Part shown: positions 1 to 17,201 of the stretch, in pieces | Layout of the letters: each line of letters begins with the position of its first letter | How positions within the stretch are numbered: position 1 is the first letter of the stretch | IMG/VR virus record: IMGVR_UViG_3300044640_001369 | Location: 1 to 26,343 of that record | Length of the DNA stretch: 26,343 nt | DNA from: a virus | Direction: 5' to 3' (one strand) | Translations under genes and position numbers: made by a program | Notes under the pieces: model-generated | The model's database searches: none | The model's input: the letters and a program-made list of their open reading frames with translations, nothing else | Told to the model about the DNA's origin: nothing

Positions 1-172
1 TTTTCCAAGTGAGAACGAAGCAAAAGAAGTTGTTTCCTTCGCATGGGGTATTCCTCAATTTCAAGTGTTATCACCTTAATCAAGTCAATGATATAGTGAG
101 CCTTTTCGTTGTTTGTCATTTCGTTATGATATTTTTTAAATGCAATTCCCTTGCTTTGTCCTTTGGTGTCAT
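1..172 (-). pseudogene. Fourth member of the MTPKEKAEEL paralog array, split by a frameshift and cut by the window edge
   Basis: The gene starts at 172 with MTPKDKAREL, the family signature, and its ATG overlaps the stop of the upstream paralog (ATGA). The zero frame stops at 116-118 after only 18 residues. Moving to the -1 frame at the heptamer TTTAAAA (minus strand, 140 down to 134, read T TTA AAA) restores a continuous reading frame that stays open to base 1. The restored sequence has KYHN where the neighbouring paralog has HYHN, which argues that the two frames belong to one ancestral gene. The frameshift could be a real mutation, a homopolymer sequencing error, or a programmed -1 shift. 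A separate gene could instead start at the ATG at 119, which overlaps the stop. Function unknown. Confidence 0.55.
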
Positions 173-396
173 ATACTTTCTATTTCGTGTTCAACCTCTT
201 CCCACCAATAATATTCATCTTCGCTGCCTTCTACCTCAATGTTCCATTTTTCTTTCATAACCTCCCGTGCGGTAAACAAGGCGCTTTGCTTTGCAAGGAT
301 TGAAACAAGGATCTCCTGTCCAAGTTCGCCTCCGATGCTTTGAATAAGGTTGTGGTAATGGGTGAATAATTCCTCTGCTTTTTCTTTTGGCGTCAT
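169..396 (-). CDS. Small phage protein of the MTPKEKAEEL paralog family (third in array)
   Basis: A 75-residue acidic protein that starts MTPKEKAEEL and ends in an aromatic/acidic tail (YYWWEEVEHEIES). The start at 396 is preferred over an in-frame ATG 11 codons upstream because its ATG overlaps the stop of the preceding paralog, as in the other members. The central part (AKQSALFTAREVMKE) aligns with AKKCALVAVDELIK in the next copy. Small proteins of this build recur in Bacteroidota phages as far as I recall, but I know of no function. It belongs to the leftward operon downstream of terL and is probably translated by coupling. Confidence 0.8.
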   Translation of the reverse strand: MTPKEKAEELFTHYHNLIQSIGGELGQEILVSILAKQSALFTAREVMKEKWNIEVEGSEDEYYWWEEVEHEIESI

Positions 397-611
397 AGGT
401 TTTGTATTTCTTTTTTTACTTCTTTCCAATAATTAATGGAAGGGGATGTGTCATGTGTAGCCGTTAAAAGATAATGGATTTTTATTAACTCATCCACGGC
501 AACCAAGGCGCATTTTTTAGCATTATTTTTTTTCATGTTATCGCCTAAAAATGAGGTTATTTCATTCCTGAACTTATCAATTAACTCCTCTGCTTTTTCT
601 TTTGGTGTCAT
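393..611 (-). CDS. Small phage protein of the MTPKEKAEEL paralog family (second in array)
   Basis: A 72-residue protein with the family N-terminus MTPKEKAEEL, a central KKCALVAVDELIK segment and the C-terminus YWKEVKKEIQNL, identical in its last nine residues to the upstream copy. A longer frame beginning MERSKKRNTKP exists only because the 3' end of the previous copy reads through in this frame. The ATG at 611 overlaps the upstream TGA, so I take it as the start. Predicted to be mostly helical and soluble. Function unknown. The near-identical ends suggest recent tandem duplication with a divergent middle. Confidence 0.82.
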   Translation of the reverse strand: MTPKEKAEELIDKFRNEITSFLGDNMKKNNAKKCALVAVDELIKIHYLLTATHDTSPSINYWKEVKKEIQNL

Positions 612-832
612 AGGTTTTGTATTTCTTTTTTTACTTCTTTCCAAAAATTAGTGTGTTCAATGCTATTATGTTTCCAAATAGCACATTTTAAAATTTCATC
701 AACCGCAGTCAACGCGTGTCCTTTTGCCTTGGATGAATCAATATATTCCACCCAGCCTTTTGTTTCTGTTAAAATTTTTCTGCGTTCACTAAATTTATTT
801 ACTAATTCCTCTGCTTTTTCTTTTGGTGTCAT
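608..832 (-). CDS. Small phage protein of the MTPKEKAEEL paralog family (first in array)
   Basis: A 74-residue protein, the first of four tandem relatives immediately downstream of terL (6 bases between them). It has MTPKEKAEELVNKF at the N-terminus, KGHALTAVDEILK in the middle and FWKEVKKEIQNL at the end. The repeat unit in the array is about 215-225 bases, and each unit starts on the ATGA that ends the previous one. No catalytic motif, membrane segment or metal site is visible. Position in a packaging operon does not prove a packaging role. Function unknown. Confidence 0.82.
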   Translation of the reverse strand: MTPKEKAEELVNKFSERRKILTETKGWVEYIDSSKAKGHALTAVDEILKCAIWKHNSIEHTNFWKEVKKEIQNL

Positions 833-5504: not shown

Positions 5505-5574
5505 CGCAAGTTAGTTTAGTGTTAAAATGTTTTGCGACGGCAAAAAGACGAAGATTAGATTCCTTCACTTGCAA
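5505..5574 (+). tRNA. tRNA-like sequence 1 (atypical, possibly degenerate)
   Basis: The ends can pair as GCAAGT (5506-5511) with ACTTGC (5567-5572). A D-arm of the GTTT-AGTGTTA-AAAT type follows, then a stem TTTTG/CAAAA that closes only a six-base loop (CGACGG). The T-arm is GAAGA-TTAGATT-CCTTC with one mismatch and lacks the usual TTC. No U33-type anticodon loop can be assigned, so the amino acid is not called. It may be a decayed tRNA or a tRNA mimic. Confidence 0.4.
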
Positions 5575-5577
5575 ATT

Positions 5578-5650
5578 AGCAAGGTGGCGGATGGGTAGCG
5601 CAAAGCGGCGACCGCGGCTGACATTGTGGGTTCAAATCCCACCCTTGTAC
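5578..5650 (+). tRNA. tRNA-like sequence 2, anticodon not assignable
   Basis: 73 bases. Acceptor AGCAAGG (5578-5584) pairs with CCTTGTA (5643-5649) except for the terminal position. A perfect T-arm GTGGG-TTCAAAT-CCCAC spans 5626-5642. The D-arm is GCG...CGC. The anticodon arm is poor: AGCGG/CGGCT with one mismatch around CGACCG. The string GCGACCGC resembles GCGACGGC at the same place in sequence 1. The T-arm and acceptor strongly suggest tRNA descent. Whether it is charged is unclear. Confidence 0.5.
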
Positions 5651-5717
5651 TTACCACCCGAAGGTTGAGCAATGCTGGCACCGTGCGTTGATAAAGGGAT
5701 GGAACGGTGTAAATTTT

Positions 5718-5840
5718 AGCAAGATGGCGGAATGGTAGACGCACAAGTCGGATGGGTGGAGTATCGTAGCCCAAGGTTATACTTCCTTAACAAAAAAAAG
5801 TAGGGAGATACTCGTACGGGTTCGATTCCTGTTCTTGCTG
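5718..5840 (+). tRNA. tRNA-Leu/Ser-type (class II-like) gene with extra-long anticodon/variable region
   Basis: Perfect 7-bp acceptor AGCAAGA (5718-5724)/TCTTGCT (5833-5839), a leucine-type D-arm GCGGAATGGTAGACGC, and a T-arm ACGGG-TTCGATT-CCTGT (5816-5832). Between the D- and T-arms lie about 73 bases, against about 31-35 in a normal class II tRNA. The insert can form GAGTATC (5759-5765)/GATACTC (5807-5813). No clean anticodon stem is found, so the anticodon is left open. No CCA is encoded. Confidence 0.55.
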
Positions 5841-5856
5841 CTAAAAAATTAAGGTT

Positions 5857-6114
5857 ATGAATATTAAACAATTAAAAGAATCAATCGCAAATCTTCCTGA
5901 CGAAATGGAAGTGGTTTTACAAAAAGATAGTGAGGGTAACGGGTATAGTCCACTTAAAGGTGTTGACTCAGATGCTGTTTACATTCCTTATAATACATGG
6001 TCAGGGGATGTTTATTCAATTGGATGGACTTCAGATGAAGCTGATATGTCAGATAAAGAATGGCAGGAAATAAAGTCGAAACCAAGAATTTTGATTTTAT
6101 ATCCTGTTAATTAA
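5857..6114 (+). CDS. Conserved small phage protein, function unknown
   Basis: An 85-residue acidic protein (MNIKQLKESIANLPDEMEV..., ending in ILILYPVN). It begins with a short helix, followed by VVLQKDSEGNGYSPLKGVDSD, an aromatic stretch around YNTWSGDVYS and a last strand RILILYPV. I recall closely similar proteins across many unrelated phages and plasmids, none with a known role. It sits between two tRNA-like genes, 16 bases after one and 9 before the next, so it is probably transcribed with them. The start is preceded by an A-rich leader and no Shine-Dalgarno site. Confidence 0.85.
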   Translation: MNIKQLKESIANLPDEMEVVLQKDSEGNGYSPLKGVDSDAVYIPYNTWSGDVYSIGWTSDEADMSDKEWQEIKSKPRILILYPVN

Positions 6115-6123
6115 TATTAACTT

Positions 6124-6225
6124 AGTCAGGTGGCGGAATGGTAGACGCACATCCTAAATACATTCAGATGGTGGAACTGAATTAATTGGGTGTACCACTT
6201 GCGGGTTCGAATCCCGTTCTGACTA
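6124..6225 (+). tRNA. tRNA-Leu/Ser-type (class II-like) gene with insertion in the anticodon region
   Basis: Acceptor AGTCAGG (6124-6130) pairs with TCTGACT (6218-6224), one G-U at the inner end. The D-arm GCGGAATGGTAGACGC is identical to that of the gene at 5718. T-arm GCGGG-TTCGAAT-CCCGT spans 6201-6217. CATCC (6150-6154) can pair with GGGTG (6188-6192) as an anticodon stem, but then encloses 33 bases instead of 7. These contain the hairpin ATTCAG/CTGAAT. The segment GATGGTGGA (6168-6176) recurs as GATGGGTGGA in the other long tRNA. The anticodon cannot be called safely. Confidence 0.55.
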
Positions 6226-6327: not shown

Positions 6328-6936
6328 ATGATTGATAACAAATTTTTTTTTGACAAATCCGTTGAACTTGGTTTTACCACGCGCGACTACGAACCCCTTG
6401 TTTCCTTGCATACCAACGGCGCAAGGGTTTTGCAAATCATGGGGTGTGAATCCGTGTTTGAGTTCGGATCAGGACTTGGATTCTTTTTATCCGCCTGCCA
6501 GCGCGTGGGCTTGTATAAACACGTTGGGTATGACATTAACCCGTATGAAAGGGAATTTGCAATAAGCAAGGGCATTGACCCAGGGAGATATTTACTTGCC
6601 AAATGGGTGACGAAATACCAGTTAGGAAGATATGAATTAAAGACTCATGGTTCATACGATGCCATTTACTCCACCGAAGTCTTTGAACACATGACCGACG
6701 AACAAATTAGCTTTGTCATGCCAATCCTTTACAAGACCTGTAAAAAGTATTTTTATTTTACGTCCACTCCTCATGCCTCAGCCGATCCAGCGTTCGACAT
6801 TGAATGGGGACATATTAACCTGAAGCAAAAGGACGAATGGGTTGCCTTGTTTCATCGACACGGTTTTGACTTGCTGAGGGAAGCGACGGAGGTAACGCCG
6901 TGGGGGCTTTTGTTCGTGAAACGGGAGAAAAAGTAA
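6328..6936 (+). CDS. Class I SAM-dependent methyltransferase
   Basis: A 202-residue protein with a Rossmann-fold methyltransferase core. Motif I is VFEFGSGLGFFL (about residues 43-54) for SAM binding, followed by YKHVGYDINPYE with the acidic residue after strand 2. YDAIYSTEVFEHM is the strand-4 motif of class I enzymes (compare D-x-x-x-x-EVxEH), and YFYFTSTPH is strand 5. The C-terminal half has GFDLLREATEVTPWG. It resembles small-molecule or lipid/sugar methyltransferases more than DNA enzymes, since no DPPY or PC motif is present. The substrate is unknown. It may tailor a glycan or nucleotide sugar together with the glycosyltransferases. An A-rich leader precedes the ATG. Confidence 0.85.
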   Translation: MIDNKFFFDKSVELGFTTRDYEPLVSLHTNGARVLQIMGCESVFEFGSGLGFFLSACQRVGLYKHVGYDINPYEREFAISKGIDPGRYLLAKWVTKYQLGRYELKTHGSYDAIYSTEVFEHMTDEQISFVMPILYKTCKKYFYFTSTPHASADPAFDIEWGHINLKQKDEWVALFHRHGFDLLREATEVTPWGLLFVKREKK

Positions 6937-6940
6937 AGGT

Positions 6941-7069
6941 ATGGCAAATTATATTAAGGCAGCATTGGACAAGGTTTTGACATACGAAACACCGCCAGCC
7001 GTGGTAAAATACATGGAAATGCAAAGCGCACTGGGGAATCCGCCGTGGAAAAAAAGAAGGAGAAAGTAA
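6941..7069 (+). CDS. 42-residue basic hypothetical protein
   Basis: A short frame starting four bases after the methyltransferase stop (MANYIKAALDKVLTYETPP..., ending NPPWKKRRRK). One amphipathic helix is followed by a proline segment and a strongly basic C-terminus that could bind nucleic acid. It is the last gene before the structured RNA at 7092. The tight spacing supports it as real. Function unknown. Confidence 0.6.
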   Translation: MANYIKAALDKVLTYETPPAVVKYMEMQSALGNPPWKKRRRK

Positions 7070-7080
7070 TTAATATTTTG

Positions 7081-7088
7081 TATATTTG
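7081..7088 (+). promoter_or_regulatory. TAnnTTTG -7 box for structured RNA copy 1
   Basis: TATATTTG placed four to six bases before hairpin 1 of the RNA. The same arrangement is seen in copy 2 (TATCTTTG at 9040). No TTTG is present 16-20 bases upstream, so recognition may need a phage factor or an extended -7 element. Confidence 0.6.
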
Positions 7089-7091
7089 TAA

Positions 7092-7192
7092 TGTTCTTTT
7101 GAATGGCGTAGCAGGTATTCAAAAGGAAATTGGAACAAACCATTGTTCTAACCCTTTGCCAACGAACTGCTACTCGTTGGCAATTTTTTTTT
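7092..7192 (+). ncRNA. Structured RNA with loop-terminator kissing interaction, copy 1
   Basis: About 100 nt. Hairpin P1 pairs 7094-7104 with 7117-7127 (11 bp, one G-U). P2 pairs 7132-7138 with 7143-7149. P3 pairs 7156-7165 with 7174-7183 and is followed by nine T. The P1 loop contains GTAGCAG (7108-7114), exactly complementary to CTGCTAC (7167-7173), which fills the P3 loop. The RNA starts just after a TAnnTTTG box and ends 6 bases before the ATG of the ParB-methylase gene. Paralogous to 9051-9148 with compensatory changes. It could be a trans-acting sRNA, an attenuator/riboswitch for the downstream gene, or an antitermination element. No named family is recognised. Confidence 0.82.
7156..7192 (+). 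terminator. Intrinsic terminator forming hairpin P3 of RNA copy 1
   Basis: Ten-bp stem TTGCCAACGA/TCGTTGGCAA with an 8-base loop, then nine T. It ends six bases upstream of the ATG at 7199, so transcription of the downstream gene from any upstream promoter must read through it. Confidence 0.85.
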
Positions 7193-7198
7193 ATACTC

Positions 7199-8467
7199 AT
7201 GCAAATATTAAAAGAACTTGAAGTCTTAATCCCACCGTTAACAAGTGAGGAATTTAAGCAACTGGAACGTAATATTCTTGAAGAAGGAATACGCGACCCA
7301 TTGGTGACATGGAACGGTATTTTAGTCGATGGACACAACAGGTACAGGATTGCTCAGGAATACGACATTGACTTTGAAACCGTGGAAAAGGAATTTCCAG
7401 ATATTTTAACGGTAAAGGTTTGGATGATTGTAAATCAATTCGGGAGAAGGAATTTAAACAATTATCAACGGAGTGTTTTAGCCTTGCATCTTGAAGGCGT
7501 TTACAATGAGAAAGCAAAGGAAAAGCAAAAAGGAGGACAAGGAGGTATTTTGCTTCCGCAGAAATCTGCGGAAGGAAATAAATTAGAAAATGAGACAAGG
7601 TATAAATTAGGTAAAGTTGCGAACGTTTCACATGATACGATAAGCAAGGTAAAGAAGATTGAAGCCACCGCCTCCCCCGAAATCAAGGCAAAGGTAAGCA
7701 CTGGGCAAATAAGCATAAACGAGGCATTTAAGGAAATCAAGAAGGAGGAGAATGAACAATCAAAAACGCAAAAGGCGATTGAGATAATTGAAAAAGTTTA
7801 CGAAAGCAATACAAATATTTTTCATGGAAATTGTATCGAGTTTATTAAAACCATTGAGGATAAAAGTATTGACTGTTTAATAACCGACCCACCCTACGGC
7901 GTTGACATTCAATTTGGCGCGTATGACAATCAACTGAGCCGCAAGATTGAAAACGATGGAAACATTGACGATGCTTTGCTTTTGCTTGATGAAATGTTAC
8001 TTGAAGTAAAAAGCAAATTAAAAGACAATGCACACATTTACATTTTTTGTAACTGGAAAATATATCCTCAATTCAATGCAATTATTTCAAAGCATTTTCA
8101 AATCAAGAACCTCATAATATGGGATAAATTATTCATGGGAATGGGTGACTTAAAAGGGAATTATTCGAGCTCTTATGAAATGATTGTTTTCGCTGGAGGC
8201 AACAGGGAATTTTTATCAAGACCCAAAAATATAATTCAATGCAGATTTAATGATGAAAGATTTCATAACACTCAAAAGCCCGTTGATTTAATTAAGCAAC
8301 TCATTGAAAATAGTACCAACGTCAATGAAACAATTTTCGATCCTTTCCTTGGAAGTGGCTCAACTGTCATTGCGGCAAATCAATTAAAAAGAAATTTCAT
8401 TGGATGCGAAATTGACGAACAAAATTATAAGATAACTTTAAAAAGACTTGAAGATGGTAAGTGTTAA
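7199..8467 (+). CDS. ParB-like domain fused to a beta-class DNA N6-adenine/N4-cytosine methyltransferase
   Basis: A 422-residue protein. Residues 1-90 form a ParB-like domain (ILVDGHNRYRIA around D44-R48). A helical, HTH-like linker follows (VANVSHDTISKVKKIE, about 140-155), then a DNA methyltransferase with catalytic motif IV DPPYGVD (230-236) and, after it, SAM-binding motif I DPFLGSGST (381-389), the order of beta-class enzymes. It would methylate the exocyclic amino group of A or C in DNA, protecting phage DNA or controlling genes. A longer frame extends upstream through the terminator of the structured RNA. The ATG at 7199, six bases after the U-tract, is the sensible start. The 3' end overlaps the next gene by 14 bases. 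Confidence 0.92.
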   Translation: MQILKELEVLIPPLTSEEFKQLERNILEEGIRDPLVTWNGILVDGHNRYRIAQEYDIDFETVEKEFPDILTVKVWMIVNQFGRRNLNNYQRSVLALHLEGVYNEKAKEKQKGGQGGILLPQKSAEGNKLENETRYKLGKVANVSHDTISKVKKIEATASPEIKAKVSTGQISINEAFKEIKKEENEQSKTQKAIEIIEKVYESNTNIFHGNCIEFIKTIEDKSIDCLITDPPYGVDIQFGAYDNQLSRKIENDGNIDDALLLLDEMLLEVKSKLKDNAHIYIFCNWKIYPQFNAIISKHFQIKNLIIWDKLFMGMGDLKGNYSSSYEMIVFAGGNREFLSRPKNIIQCRFNDERFHNTQKPVDLIKQLIENSTNVNETIFDPFLGSGSTVIAANQLKRNFIGCEIDEQNYKITLKRLEDGKC

Positions 8468-9023
8468 TTATAAAGAATTTAGAAAGTACTCAGACAAAAG
8501 CCTTCCAGAGGCAAAGGAGCATATTTCAAAATTTTTCAATCAAGGACTTTATAAAATATCGTTGGTCGAATTTATTAAGGAATCTGGAAAATATGACGAT
8601 ACCATTAACGCTATTGACTTATTTGTAAATATTCCTGAGTTTAAAATAAGTCACAGGGCACGAAAAAAGTACGGAGACATTATTGACATTACGATTAAAA
8701 CAAGAAGCCAAAACCCTGAGGTAAAATCTGAGTACGAAAAACTTTTGGAGTTTTCTTCACTCAATAAATCATGGTTTTATTTTTATTGTTTTTATGACGA
8801 GGAAAAGGATAATATAAGCAGATATATTATTTACGATTTACGCAAATTAATCAGGCTTCCAGAGTTTAAAGACAAATCAATCTTTGCTTATCCAACAGAC
8901 AAATTTAACACAAAAGACGGCGGCTCACATTTTAATTGCATAACCGTTAATAAGTTAATTGAGAAAGGTGTTATTTTGGCTGACTGGTCAAAAGGTGAAG
9001 GCGAAGCAAAATATTATATATAA
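8454..9023 (+). CDS. Hypothetical protein overlapping the methylase; possible modification partner
   Basis: A 189-residue protein starting at the ATG inside the last codons of the methylase (14-base overlap), so translation is probably coupled. It has mixed alpha/beta content with KKYGDIIDITIKTRSQ (about residues 73-88) followed by WFYFYCFYDEE and YIIYDLRKLI, an order reminiscent of PD-(D/E)XK-type nucleases. However, the E/D-x-K catalytic pair is not intact (T-I-K). AT-rich like the 3' part of the methylase. It may be a restriction partner, a specificity factor or unrelated. I do not recognise the family. Confidence 0.75.
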   Translation: MVSVNYKEFRKYSDKSLPEAKEHISKFFNQGLYKISLVEFIKESGKYDDTINAIDLFVNIPEFKISHRARKKYGDIIDITIKTRSQNPEVKSEYEKLLEFSSLNKSWFYFYCFYDEEKDNISRYIIYDLRKLIRLPEFKDKSIFAYPTDKFNTKDGGSHFNCITVNKLIEKGVILADWSKGEGEAKYYI

Positions 9024-9039
9024 TTTGCCAAATATTTAT

Positions 9040-9047
9040 TATCTTTG
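9040..9047 (+). promoter_or_regulatory. TAnnTTTG -7 box for structured RNA copy 2
   Basis: TATCTTTG four bases before hairpin 1 of the second RNA. A TTTG occurs at 9024-9027, but only 12 bases upstream, closer than the 16 seen elsewhere in this window. Confidence 0.6.
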
Positions 9048-9050
9048 GTT

Positions 9051-9148
9051 ATTCTTTTGAATCAGGTAGGAGCGATTCAAAAGAACTTCGGGACAATATC
9101 CGCATTGTTCACATTGCCCAATGAACTCCTACTCGTTGGGCATTTTTT
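9051..9148 (+). ncRNA. Structured RNA with loop-terminator kissing interaction, copy 2
   Basis: About 98 nt. P1 pairs 9052-9063 with 9074-9085 (12 bp, perfect). P2 pairs 9091-9097 with 9104-9110. P3 pairs 9115-9124 with 9133-9142 and is followed by six T. The P1 loop holds GTAGGAG (9066-9072), complementary to CTCCTAC (9126-9132) in the P3 loop. Against copy 1 the kissing pair has swapped C-G to G-C. P3 shows G-C to C-G and T-A to G-C double changes, and C-G to T-G. This is strong evidence that the fold and the loop-loop contact are selected. It lies ten bases upstream of the ATG of the replication-initiator-like gene. Confidence 0.82.
9115..9148 (+). terminator. Intrinsic terminator forming hairpin P3 of RNA copy 2
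   Basis: Ten-bp stem TGCCCAATGA/TCGTTGGGCA (one G-U), loop ACTCCTAC, then six T. Positioned just before the ATG at 9159. Confidence 0.82.
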
Positions 9149-9158
9149 ATTATAACTT

Positions 9159-10154
9159 ATGGAGTTTTCATTTAACGTTGAATTTGCTAATCGTTACGGT
9201 ATTGACGAAGCCATTATGATAAAATCCTTCCAATTTTGGATAAGGTTAAATAAGGCTAATGGAAATAATTTTAATGATGGTAAGTATTGGACGTATAATA
9301 CAAATAAGTCACTTGGTTTGTATTTTACCTTTTGGAGCGAAAAGCAAGTGCGAAGGATTATTGAAAGCCTTGTCGATAAAGGTATTTTAATAAAAGGTAA
9401 TTATAATAAAATCGGTTACGACAGAACGATTTGGTATGCCTTTGTTAACGAAGATTTATACCTTTCAGATAACTTTCATTTACCAGATAATGGATTTGAC
9501 CAAAAGGGAAATACCATTTTACCAAATGGGCAAATGGATATTTCCAAAAGGGCAAATCGATTTTCACGAAAGGGCGAACCTATACCAGTTGCTAACCAAG
9601 TACTAAATACATTTACTAACTCAGATAATATTGAAAATCATTCTGATTTTACCGAATTTGAAAAAATTGAAATTACTGAAAATGAAATTAACCAAAGTAA
9701 AAAGGTTAATCCATTTACTTTAATAACACAGTTAGAAAAAGAAAAAAGTTCCGCGAAAAAAGAAAAAGAAAAGATTCCCTCCCCCACTTACGCCGCCTTC
9801 TCCGTGTTTTGCCAAACCTTCGAAAACTTATCTGGCGCCGCGTATCCGACTGACCAGAATGGACATTACATCATGATGCCCAAAGACGCGGGTCAAATGA
9901 AATTTCTTATGCAATACATTGACAAAATAGACAGACAGGGCGATAGCCTTGAGGCGTTGAAGGTGTTTATTCAAGCGGCATGGAACCTGAATGACAAATG
10001 GCTGAGGGCAAATTTCACCATTGCAAACATTTACGGACAAGCCTCAAAGATATTTACCGCGTATCAAACGACAAGCCCAGCGGCAAAGGACAAGGCGTAT
10101 AATGATAAATTACAAGAATTGCTTGCCGAAAGAATGGCAAAGTTTCAAGATTAA
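9159..10154 (+). CDS. Replication initiator / replisome-organizer-like protein (winged-helix N-terminus)
   Basis: A 331-residue protein. Residues about 1-105 look like a phage replisome-organizer winged helix: MEFSFNVEFANRYGIDEAIM, then a wing region KYWTYNTNKSLGLYFTFWSEKQVRRIIESLVDKG with the recognition helix, and an aromatic wing IWYAFVNED. A polar, low-complexity linker follows (about 110-205, ending in a Lys/Glu run). The C-terminal domain is helical with ALKVFIQAAWNLNDKWLRANFTIANIYGQ, similar in shape to DnaD-type C-terminal domains. Such proteins bind the phage origin and help load helicase. Its gene follows structured RNA copy 2, so it is a candidate regulated target. The exact family is uncertain. 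Confidence 0.7.
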   Translation: MEFSFNVEFANRYGIDEAIMIKSFQFWIRLNKANGNNFNDGKYWTYNTNKSLGLYFTFWSEKQVRRIIESLVDKGILIKGNYNKIGYDRTIWYAFVNEDLYLSDNFHLPDNGFDQKGNTILPNGQMDISKRANRFSRKGEPIPVANQVLNTFTNSDNIENHSDFTEFEKIEITENEINQSKKVNPFTLITQLEKEKSSAKKEKEKIPSPTYAAFSVFCQTFENLSGAAYPTDQNGHYIMMPKDAGQMKFLMQYIDKIDRQGDSLEALKVFIQAAWNLNDKWLRANFTIANIYGQASKIFTAYQTTSPAAKDKAYNDKLQELLAERMAKFQD

Positions 10155-10928: not shown

Positions 10929-10961
10929 GTGGGGCATAGAAATTATGCCTCACTTTTTTTT
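10929..10961 (+). terminator. Intrinsic terminator after the replication genes
   Basis: Ten-bp stem GTGGGGCATA/TATGCCTCAC (one G-U), loop GAAAT, followed by eight T. It separates the replication unit from the next unit, which begins at a promoter block 10 bases further on. Confidence 0.88.
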
Positions 10962-10970
10962 AATTTATTT

Positions 10971-11022
10971 TTGTAAATATTTTTTTATTCAAATAATTAT
11001 ATTTAAATTTACGTATTGAAAA
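10971..11022 (+). promoter_or_regulatory. Repeated promoter block A
   Basis: One of three near-identical 52-base blocks. It starts TTGTAAATATTTTTTT, has TTTA at 10984-10987, 16 bases, then TAAATTTA at 11004-11011, then CGTATTGAAAA. Identical to block B over most of its length and collinear with block C. It precedes the small-gene unit starting at 11041. Confidence 0.7.
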
Positions 11023-11040
11023 TAACAAAAGCCAATTATC

Positions 11041-15277: not shown

Positions 15278-15308
15278 GTCCGTGTCCTTCGATGCGGACA
15301 TTTTTTTT
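15278..15308 (+). terminator. Intrinsic terminator ending the nucleotide-metabolism unit
   Basis: Stem GTCCGTGT/ATGCGGAC (8 bp with two G-U pairs), loop CCTTCG, followed by eight T. Promoter block B begins ten bases later, the same terminator-promoter arrangement as at 10929-11022. Confidence 0.85.
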
Positions 15309-15317
15309 ATTTTATTA

Positions 15318-15369
15318 TTGTAAATATTTTTTTATTCAAATAAATAATATTAAATTTACGTATTGAAAA
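15318..15369 (+). promoter_or_regulatory. Repeated promoter block B
   Basis: TTGTAAATATTTTTTT, TTTA at 15331-15334, 16 bases, TAAATTTA at 15351-15358, then CGTATTGAAAA. Same length and phase as block A. An A-rich leader (AACAAAAACAAACCAA) leads to the ATG at 15388. Confidence 0.7.
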
Positions 15370-15387
15370 AAAACAAAAACAAACCAA

Positions 15388-17095: not shown

Positions 17096-17113
17096 ATTAT
17101 TTTGCATTTATTT

Positions 17114-17165
17114 TTGTAAATATTTTTTTGTTTAAATATTACTTTGTATATTTACATATCGAAAG
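17114..17165 (+). promoter_or_regulatory. Repeated promoter block C
   Basis: TTGTAAATATTTTTTTG, with TTTG at 17127-17130, 16 bases, TATATTTA at 17147-17154, then CATATCGAAAG. It differs from blocks A and B mainly inside the spacer while all key elements keep their spacing, the pattern expected of functional conservation. Confidence 0.7.
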
Positions 17166-17201
17166 AACGAAACGATATTTCACACAACAAAAACAAACGT
17201 C

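Follow-up and report, generated by a model that had tools for sequence, protein, structure and literature searches.

A family of attenuator-like phage leader RNAs in which the loop of the first hairpin is complementary to the loop of the terminator

A number of RNA systems are known in which contacts between hairpin loops, or structured RNAs of phages and plasmids, govern gene expression. The attenuator of pT181-type plasmids precedes a replication gene, while in the ColE1 system RNA I and RNA II, two RNAs made from opposite strands and acting on a primer, meet through loops of about 7 nt that are paired over nearly their full length. GOLLD, ROOL and OLE are, to our knowledge, not leaders. The partner in pT181 is a separate antisense RNA, and an antiterminator there binds the terminator stem in its 5' part (PMC4878617). 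In phage HK022 the put RNA, of about 70 nt and with two stem-loops, has been described as letting polymerase read through terminators up to 10 kb away with no dedicated protein (PMC9378689, in part), and GOLLD often exceeds 800 nt, ornate RNAs of this sort forming cages or dimers according to a portion of PMC12286853. The subject here is a 26,343-base virus record (IMG/VR IMGVR_UViG_3300044640_001369, the whole of which is referred to as the window) and an element at 7,092-9,148 in it, consisting of two related RNAs whose first loop can pair ("kiss") with the loop of their own terminator hairpin. It is well supported that they belong to a real RNA family in which this kiss occurs in 20 compensated versions. 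We incline, if only slightly, to reading the window RNAs as phage 5'-leader transcription attenuators in which the pairing of loop 1 with the terminator would tune read-through.

Each of the two RNAs is a single cassette of about 100 nt comprising, in order, a TAnnTTTG box, hairpins P1, P2 and P3, the last being an intrinsic terminator, and a start codon. A sequence-only reading had proposed this arrangement, apart from the start codon, and its particulars hold. Folding gives the three hairpins in each copy, with none of 200 dinucleotide shuffles doing as well (z -6.6 and -3.9), and the upstream box and terminal U-tract are present at both copies, TAnnTTTG having been described for Flavobacterium as the -7 box of sigma-A promoters (PMC9723704). 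The 7-nt contacts, GTAGCAG with CTGCTAC in copy 1 and GTAGGAG with CTCCTAC in copy 2, lie where they had been placed, and the compensatory changes that had been read in P3 (7158/7181 G-C against 9117/9140 C-G, and 7157/7182 T-A against 9116/9141 G-C) are found in the sequence, as is a P1 pair, U-G in the first copy and U-A in the second. A terminator scan, weak by itself with 3 sites in 6900-9300 against a shuffle mean of 1.6, caught both P3 hairpins. A search that made no use of particular sequences, and that looked for a hairpin and a terminator hairpin with at least six Watson-Crick loop-loop pairs, found two places in the window, where 100 dinucleotide shuffles averaged 0.02 and never had more than one. 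The same search in 140 related loci (1.28 Mb) yielded 130 places compared to 2 in shuffles, figures that speak for specificity and not for frequency as the loci were picked as relatives and are partly redundant or overlapping. A control with reversed sequence (64 matches, 18 distinct) was discarded in favour of the dinucleotide shuffles because reversal presumably preserves real hairpins and their loop complementarity. There was no third copy in the window record, the third listed match being only 15 bases long (E 0.25).

Relatives were fetched from viral_contigs by the methyltransferase, the replication protein, the P1 pattern and three further downstream proteins. A covariance model (R1) containing only the nested pairs of P1, P2 and P3 was made from an alignment of 45 elements; these came from a scan demanding a 6-nt complement, so counts from them are biased, and the loop columns are modelled as single letters, so that the independence of the model is partial, but at least 37 of the 82 distinct RNAs finally retained lie outside the founding 45. 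Matches to R1 split into two groups, one of 52-106 bits and one of at most 35 bits, the lower being mainly chance matches or matches to real elements read on the antisense strand. Matches below 50 bits were dropped, and of the 190 rows at or above it (84, 42 and 64 from three sets) 164 were kept, representing 82 distinct RNAs from IMG/VR contigs with the window's two included; the 26 rows omitted were from loci repeating a contig already used, except for L237, a separate contig whose element is that of L227. The P1 pattern alone gave 67 stretches, in 34 of which the element is present by the model, the remaining 33 having none by the model and looking like unrelated palindromes. At 50 bits or more R1 matched 34 of 39 virus records (37 by a tally at E 0.01) and 43 of 50 records, both sets having been picked for holding related loci and sharing one record, and a virus record with a match has one or two elements. 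What had been argued from two copies can thus be followed in many relatives, with covariation in the contact among the 82 distinct RNAs found with R1.

The carriers are probably viruses that infect aquatic Bacteroidetes, the clearest pointer to a host being a contig (L308) of a Bacteroidia metagenome-assembled genome with a terminase of 85% identity. In bacteria, the P1 pattern found nothing in genome_contigs (with no positive control) and R1 had no match in six genomes nor, with stricter filters and again no positive control, in 395 genomes of the class of that metagenome-assembled genome. Among isolated phages copy 1 had only short blastn matches that look like chance, R1 not having been run over isolated phages collectively, and two Flavobacterium phage regions contained no real R1 match; four of five protein searches gave only matches below 60% identity and the fifth gave none.

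Every one of the 82 RNAs has at least seven Watson-Crick pairs between the loop-1 region and its own terminator-loop region (7 pairs in 60, 8 in 18, 9 in 2 and 10 in 2), although in the GTGCAG group of five RNAs the terminator loop is 6 nt long and only six kiss pairs are confined to the loops. The kiss occurs in 20 versions, in one of which, GCACTAC, the sides of the contact are exchanged. In a covariation alignment of 91 rows (86 distinct, from 73 loci) 95.4% of the cells of the kiss helix are paired and two-sided change is seen in all seven pairs; the corresponding figures are 92.9% and 8 of 11 pairs for P1, 83.5% and 6 of 6 for P2, and 98.8% and 10 of 10 for P3. Covariation in the kiss was 0.712 compared to 0.196 when shuffled, a value reached by none of 500 shuffles, and slid registers gave at most 0.139, while all four helices together gave 0.595 compared to 0.204. 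G-U pairs, rare in the kiss (7 cells of 592), occur in the stems, as they should in RNA. When all column pairs were scanned blind, P1, the kiss, P3 and part of P2 were recovered and no further covarying helix was found, the extras being A-rich letters of P1 with the U-tract or within P1; of the top 40 pairs by corrected mutual information, 20, including all of the top ten, are in the named helices and 20 are outside them, one of the latter extending P1. Chance, or plain terminators with accidental loop complementarity, would agree with the 33 P1-pattern stretches that have no element, but as an account of the family it can be given practically no credence, being refuted by the shuffle controls in the window and the 140 loci, by the retention of the contact in all 82 RNAs and by the covariation of the kiss. 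As a separate observation, the A-tract of the P1 3' arm (alignment columns 32-37) could pair with the U-tract (columns 101-106) in 86-93% of the RNAs without covariation, which is possibly a mere matter of composition.

The second feature of the family is its position. The ATG of ORF 1 (7199) lies 6 nt past the U-tract of copy 1 and that of ORF 2 (9159) 10 nt past the U-tract of copy 2, which places each RNA as a leader. ORF 1 (open reading frame 1) matches Pfam PF01555 (1.1e-35) and PHROG 67, DNA methyltransferase (1.8e-62), with ParB-like matches in its N-terminal part. ORF 2 matches PHROG 11233, replication initiation (3.5e-31), and PHROG 6493, DnaD-like helicase loader (2.4e-18), while a Pfam search with it gave no match. 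When 110 distinct places, each an RNA with its flanks, were scored (L307, of G075, was left out), a TAnnTTT[GA] box ending 3-6 nt ahead of P1 was found before all of them and an ATG 5-25 nt past the end of the model in all of them, the distance being 5-12 nt in 92. The layout of an attenuator leader, with a promoter, an intrinsic terminator and then the first codon, is therefore seen by box and ATG in 110 of 110 places, the tail being poor in the L013 type; that of a leader-peptide attenuator is not, an ATG-initiated reading frame of at least five codons being present in only 16 of the 82 RNAs.

The proteins that come next fall into 12 groups without mutual blastp similarity, the largest (n=40) being ParB/methyltransferases, the second (n=29) replication initiators that are mutually linked but differ in their N-terminal parts (PHROGs were consulted for four of their types, the one beginning MELRLN not among them) and the third (n=16) HNH nucleases, of which one was checked. 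Most loci were fetched by such genes and the shares of the groups are biased accordingly, but the 16 of the 110 places that came from the P1-pattern set, and so were not chosen by gene, have the same position. The methyltransferase group carries 16 versions of the kiss and the initiator group seven. In 21 pairs of places with dissimilar next proteins, covering eight versions, the RNAs share 97% identity or more, but this drops to 0.22-0.44 some 12 nt past the start of the U-tract and to 0.29-0.69 upstream of the promoter region; the RNA moves as a unit. An earlier count of 43 exchanged-RNA pairs, defined by differing first five residues, was rejected since it had counted homologous methyltransferases as different, and the blastp groups give the 21. 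One might suppose that the kiss is a constitutive tertiary contact stabilising the terminated RNA, which would act mainly in trans as a small RNA on the host or another phage, its position before a gene being incidental. The transcript is indeed structured throughout from promoter to U-tract, and Rli51 is an RNA from a 5' untranslated region with both cis and trans roles (PMC11394854, abstract), but a spacing of 5-12 nt to the ATG in 92 of 110 places is unexpected for a purely trans-acting RNA and no long conserved unpaired stretch that might seed a target is apparent by eye in the alignment, so that we regard this explanation as improbable.

What the sequence itself shows is the pairing of the loops and the leader position; where transcription starts, that it terminates in vivo, whether the kiss raises or lowers read-through and what signal, if any, acts on it are inferred. 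Under the attenuator reading, transcription would start at the foot of P1 and polymerase would make P1, P2 and P3 in turn, with P3 and the U-tract acting as an intrinsic terminator at which many transcripts would end, giving a compact RNA some 100 nt long. The downstream gene would be made by read-through, and the ORFs should need it, the gap from terminator to ATG being too short to hold a promoter. Loop 1, being made first, would capture seven nucleotides of the terminator loop while these are emerging and, the linkers between P1, P2 and P3 being short, capture would strain or delay the full closure of P3 (or of P2). The kiss would thereby set the frequency of read-through, with antitermination the favoured direction and a kiss that assists the terminator the alternative.

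The median linkers are 2 nt, the 8-bp P2 and 3 nt, and by a crude length estimate, which is not a model, a straight stack of P1, kiss and P3 needs about 78 Angstrom where the tether provides about 68. With the stems complete, an intramolecular kiss is within reach in 10 of 82 RNAs when straight and in 49 at an angle of 120 degrees, and fraying of 0, 1, 2 or 3 pairs makes 12, 37, 64 or 75 of the 82 reachable when straight. A strict steric exclusion of the intramolecular kiss was considered and is weakened by these figures, as a few frayed pairs or a bend suffice. The mild conflict between the kiss and complete stems may be the switch itself, or it may mean that the kiss forms between molecules. 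An intermolecular contact could be purely structural, forming a closed head-to-tail dimer (loop 1 with the loop 3 of its partner) or larger rings. The seven pairs use both loops almost fully, short linkers that contain P2 would, going by the length estimate, suit a side-by-side dimer, and GOLLD and its relatives homo-oligomerise, a GOLLD kiss found by covariation having proved intermolecular (PMC12286853, in part). An intramolecular kiss is nevertheless favoured entropically and a small amount of fraying is enough for it, and we consider such dimers or rings very improbable.

Several results weigh against the attenuator reading. The argument from the tether is weak, two frayed pairs bringing 64 of the 82 RNAs within reach. 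The blind column scan found no conserved antiterminator helix overlapping the 5' arm of P3, with the consequence that a switch would have to act through the loop, which is unusual, and P3 alone is stable (about -15 kcal/mol by folding) so that a 7-bp kiss may not stop it. When the kiss is taken alone, two of five covariation measures lie within the shuffles, which ignore relatedness: "pairs with two-sided change" in 43 of 500 and "further pair types" in 492 of 500. At L015-L018 methyltransferases 76% identical to that of the window stand directly behind other sequence with no match to the leader, which indicates that the methyltransferase gene does not require the RNA, and the U-tracts of some RNAs, those of the L013 type, are poor.

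An important consideration is how far the versions of the kiss are specific. The claim that each RNA matches itself best stands for the two window copies, whose own contacts are worth -11.0 and -10.4 kcal/mol compared to -4.3 and -6.1 when crossed. In the family it is mostly borne out, the longest run between RNAs of different versions being at most 5 pairs in 5955 of 6186 ordered crosses and 6 in 137, but it fails as a general rule in the 94 that reach 7. As simple heptamer duplexes the RNAs' own contacts have energies of -7.1 to -10.8 kcal/mol, while crossed ones average -2.4, with 35 of 380 worth -6 kcal/mol or better. In two RNAs, L022:3410 and L010:6828, the columns compared are identical apart from two compensated kiss pairs and a flipped closing pair of P3. 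Genomes with two copies carry different versions in 20 of 20 distinct combinations, and also in G054; this was nevertheless rejected as evidence of orthogonality within a genome, random draws for slot 1 and slot 2 predicting that all would differ with P = 0.49, and the case is further weakened by the strong crossed heptamers and seven-pair crosses just given and by the near-identical copies in G078. This genome (the record of L253) has near-identical leaders at 39944-40041 and 1230-1327, close to both record ends, which precede paralogous HNH genes and one of whose contacts carries an uncompensated change; the pair is perhaps a recent duplication that is beginning to diverge. Rapid diversification of the kiss was likewise considered and rejected. 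With closeness measured outside the kiss and apex, the kiss differs in 11 of 32 pairs of RNAs that are at most 3% apart elsewhere, in 1 of 15 at 3-6% and in 2 of 11 at 6-10%, at 3-20% it differs less than the rest, and 8 of the 12 closest switched pairs involve the same two versions, so that the events are not independent.

These data bear on a variant in which the leader senses itself in trans: the short RNA, once released, would kiss same-version leaders still being transcribed and tip them towards termination. As it accumulates, expression of the gene would fall, much as in the control of plasmid copy number but with the leader as its own antisense RNA, and the versions would act as incompatibility or immunity types. 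Such a scheme fits contacts that are mostly self-specific in 20 versions, otherwise identical RNAs with different versions (the pair above), replication initiators after 29 of 110 places, conservation bounded by promoter and U-tract as for a discrete RNA, linkers that are short for an intramolecular kiss, and the precedent of pT181 as a plasmid attenuator under kissing control (PMC4878617, in part). It is nonetheless rather unlikely in our estimation, given that the difference of versions within genomes is expected by chance, that G078 has two near-identical versions before its HNH genes, that the kiss differs more than the rest only in pairs at most 3% apart (0.094 compared to 0.016), that the columns of the kiss and of P3 have equal entropy (about 1.1 bits) and that the same leaders precede genes other than replication genes. 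Taken one step further, and only tentatively, a self-sensing attenuator made of one RNA might make the output of replication and DNA-modification genes depend on the copy number of the phage genome, with the 20 versions serving as recognition types among co-infecting phages.

For the proposed 5'-leader attenuators themselves, the coordinates of the two copies and of the genes behind them are collected in Table 1.

Table 1. Features of the two leader RNAs and of the downstream genes in the window
Feature	Position	Strand	Basis
Promoter box TATATTTG, copy 1	7081..7088	+	sequence; Bacteroidetes -7 box type
P1 hairpin, copy 1 (arms 7094-7105 / 7116-7127)	7094..7127	+	fold; family pairing
Loop-1 kissing contact GTAGCAG, copy 1	7108..7114	+	complement of 7167-7173; kiss covariation
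P2 hairpin, copy 1	7130..7151	+	fold; family pairing
P3 terminator hairpin, copy 1 (loop 7166-7173)	7156..7183	+	fold, terminator scan, family pairing
Terminator-loop contact CTGCTAC, copy 1	7167..7173	+	sequence, covariation
U-tract, terminator 1	7184..7192	+	sequence, terminator scan
ORF 1: ParB-like N-terminal part + N6/N4 DNA methyltransferase	7199..8467	+	Pfam, PHROG matches
Promoter box TATCTTTG, copy 2	9040..9047	+	sequence; Bacteroidetes -7 box type
P1 hairpin, copy 2 (arms 9052-9063 / 9074-9085)	9052..9085	+	fold
Loop-1 kissing contact GTAGGAG, copy 2	9066..9072	+	complement of 9126-9132; kiss covariation
P2 hairpin, copy 2	9091..9110	+	fold
P3 terminator hairpin, copy 2 (loop 9125-9132)	9115..9142	+	fold, terminator scan
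Terminator-loop contact CTCCTAC, copy 2	9126..9132	+	sequence, covariation
U-tract, terminator 2	9143..9148	+	sequence, terminator scan
ORF 2: replication initiation / DnaD-like protein	9159..10154	+	PHROG matches

Elsewhere in the window three further features were observed. A tRNA-like cluster occupies 5505-5574, 5576-5650, 5716-5840 and 6124-6225 on the + strand; two of its members are above the Rfam tRNA threshold and the two others are similar by eye, ARAGORN reports none, and the cluster (5505-6225) possibly consists of degenerate or unusual phage tRNAs. An AT-rich intergenic repeat of 82 nt is present at 10954-11035, 15301-15382 and 17097-17178 (+), the second and third copies having 87% and 74% identity to the first. 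It holds a core resembling TAAATTTACGTATTGAAA, with three core matches at up to 3 mismatches compared to 0.51 expected, and is possibly a second class of promoter. Finally, 169-832 (-) contains tandem paralogous small ORFs (74-86 amino acids) with MTPKEKAEEL and repeated gene starts.

The presence of the family in front of replication and DNA-modification genes, and loops that change together, point to an RNA switch on those genes. The part that carries specificity is a 7-bp kiss with 20 natural versions, sometimes with the remaining RNA identical, and a terminator loop, which is usually regarded as passive, is joined to a conserved contact. If the attenuator reading is true, the family would offer compact natural attenuators of differing specificity and would show by what means some Bacteroidetes phages set the timing of replication and DNA modification.

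The suggestion that the fold is not one already named agrees with Rfam 15, in which no family reaches its gathering score over the element; only two tRNAs elsewhere in the window pass, and RF00242, the highest scorer for the region, gets 27.7 bits (E 0.59), its cut-off being 56. The element was not found among the matches listed in full-text searches of open PMC papers, subscription papers being outside that scope, and a term search of the phage small-RNA review PMC12197685 did not return kissing, attenuat-, Bacteroid- or leader. Rli51 is similar in being a short RNA that arises when transcription ends early in a leader, read-through being regulated, but it involves a predicted refolding between terminator and antiterminator and a separate small RNA as partner, and the abstract of PMC11394854 does not mention a kiss between loop 1 and a terminator loop. 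GOLLD and ROOL are also RNAs of phages or prophages and, with OLE, have kissing contacts supported by covariation (PMC12286853, in part), whereas the RNA here is about 100 nt long and has no Rfam match. The put sites of HK022 are likewise two related phage hairpin RNAs in early transcripts that act on termination (PMC9378689, in part), whereas here there are about 100 nt and three hairpins, the third of which is the terminator. In contrast to ColE1, both loops are on one strand, within a single RNA that also has a terminator, and their starts are separated by 59 nt in copy 1 and 60 nt in copy 2. The likeness to pT181-type attenuators (RF00242, ctRNA_pT181), as far as PMC4878617 describes them in part, is that of a leader RNA with an intrinsic terminator governed by a loop-loop kiss; the difference is that each RNA here carries the partner loop itself, in its terminator, and that the 5' arm of P3 has no conserved antiterminator. 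In kind the element is thus an attenuator-like leader, and as an RNA family it is new to the sources searched, namely Rfam and open PMC papers.

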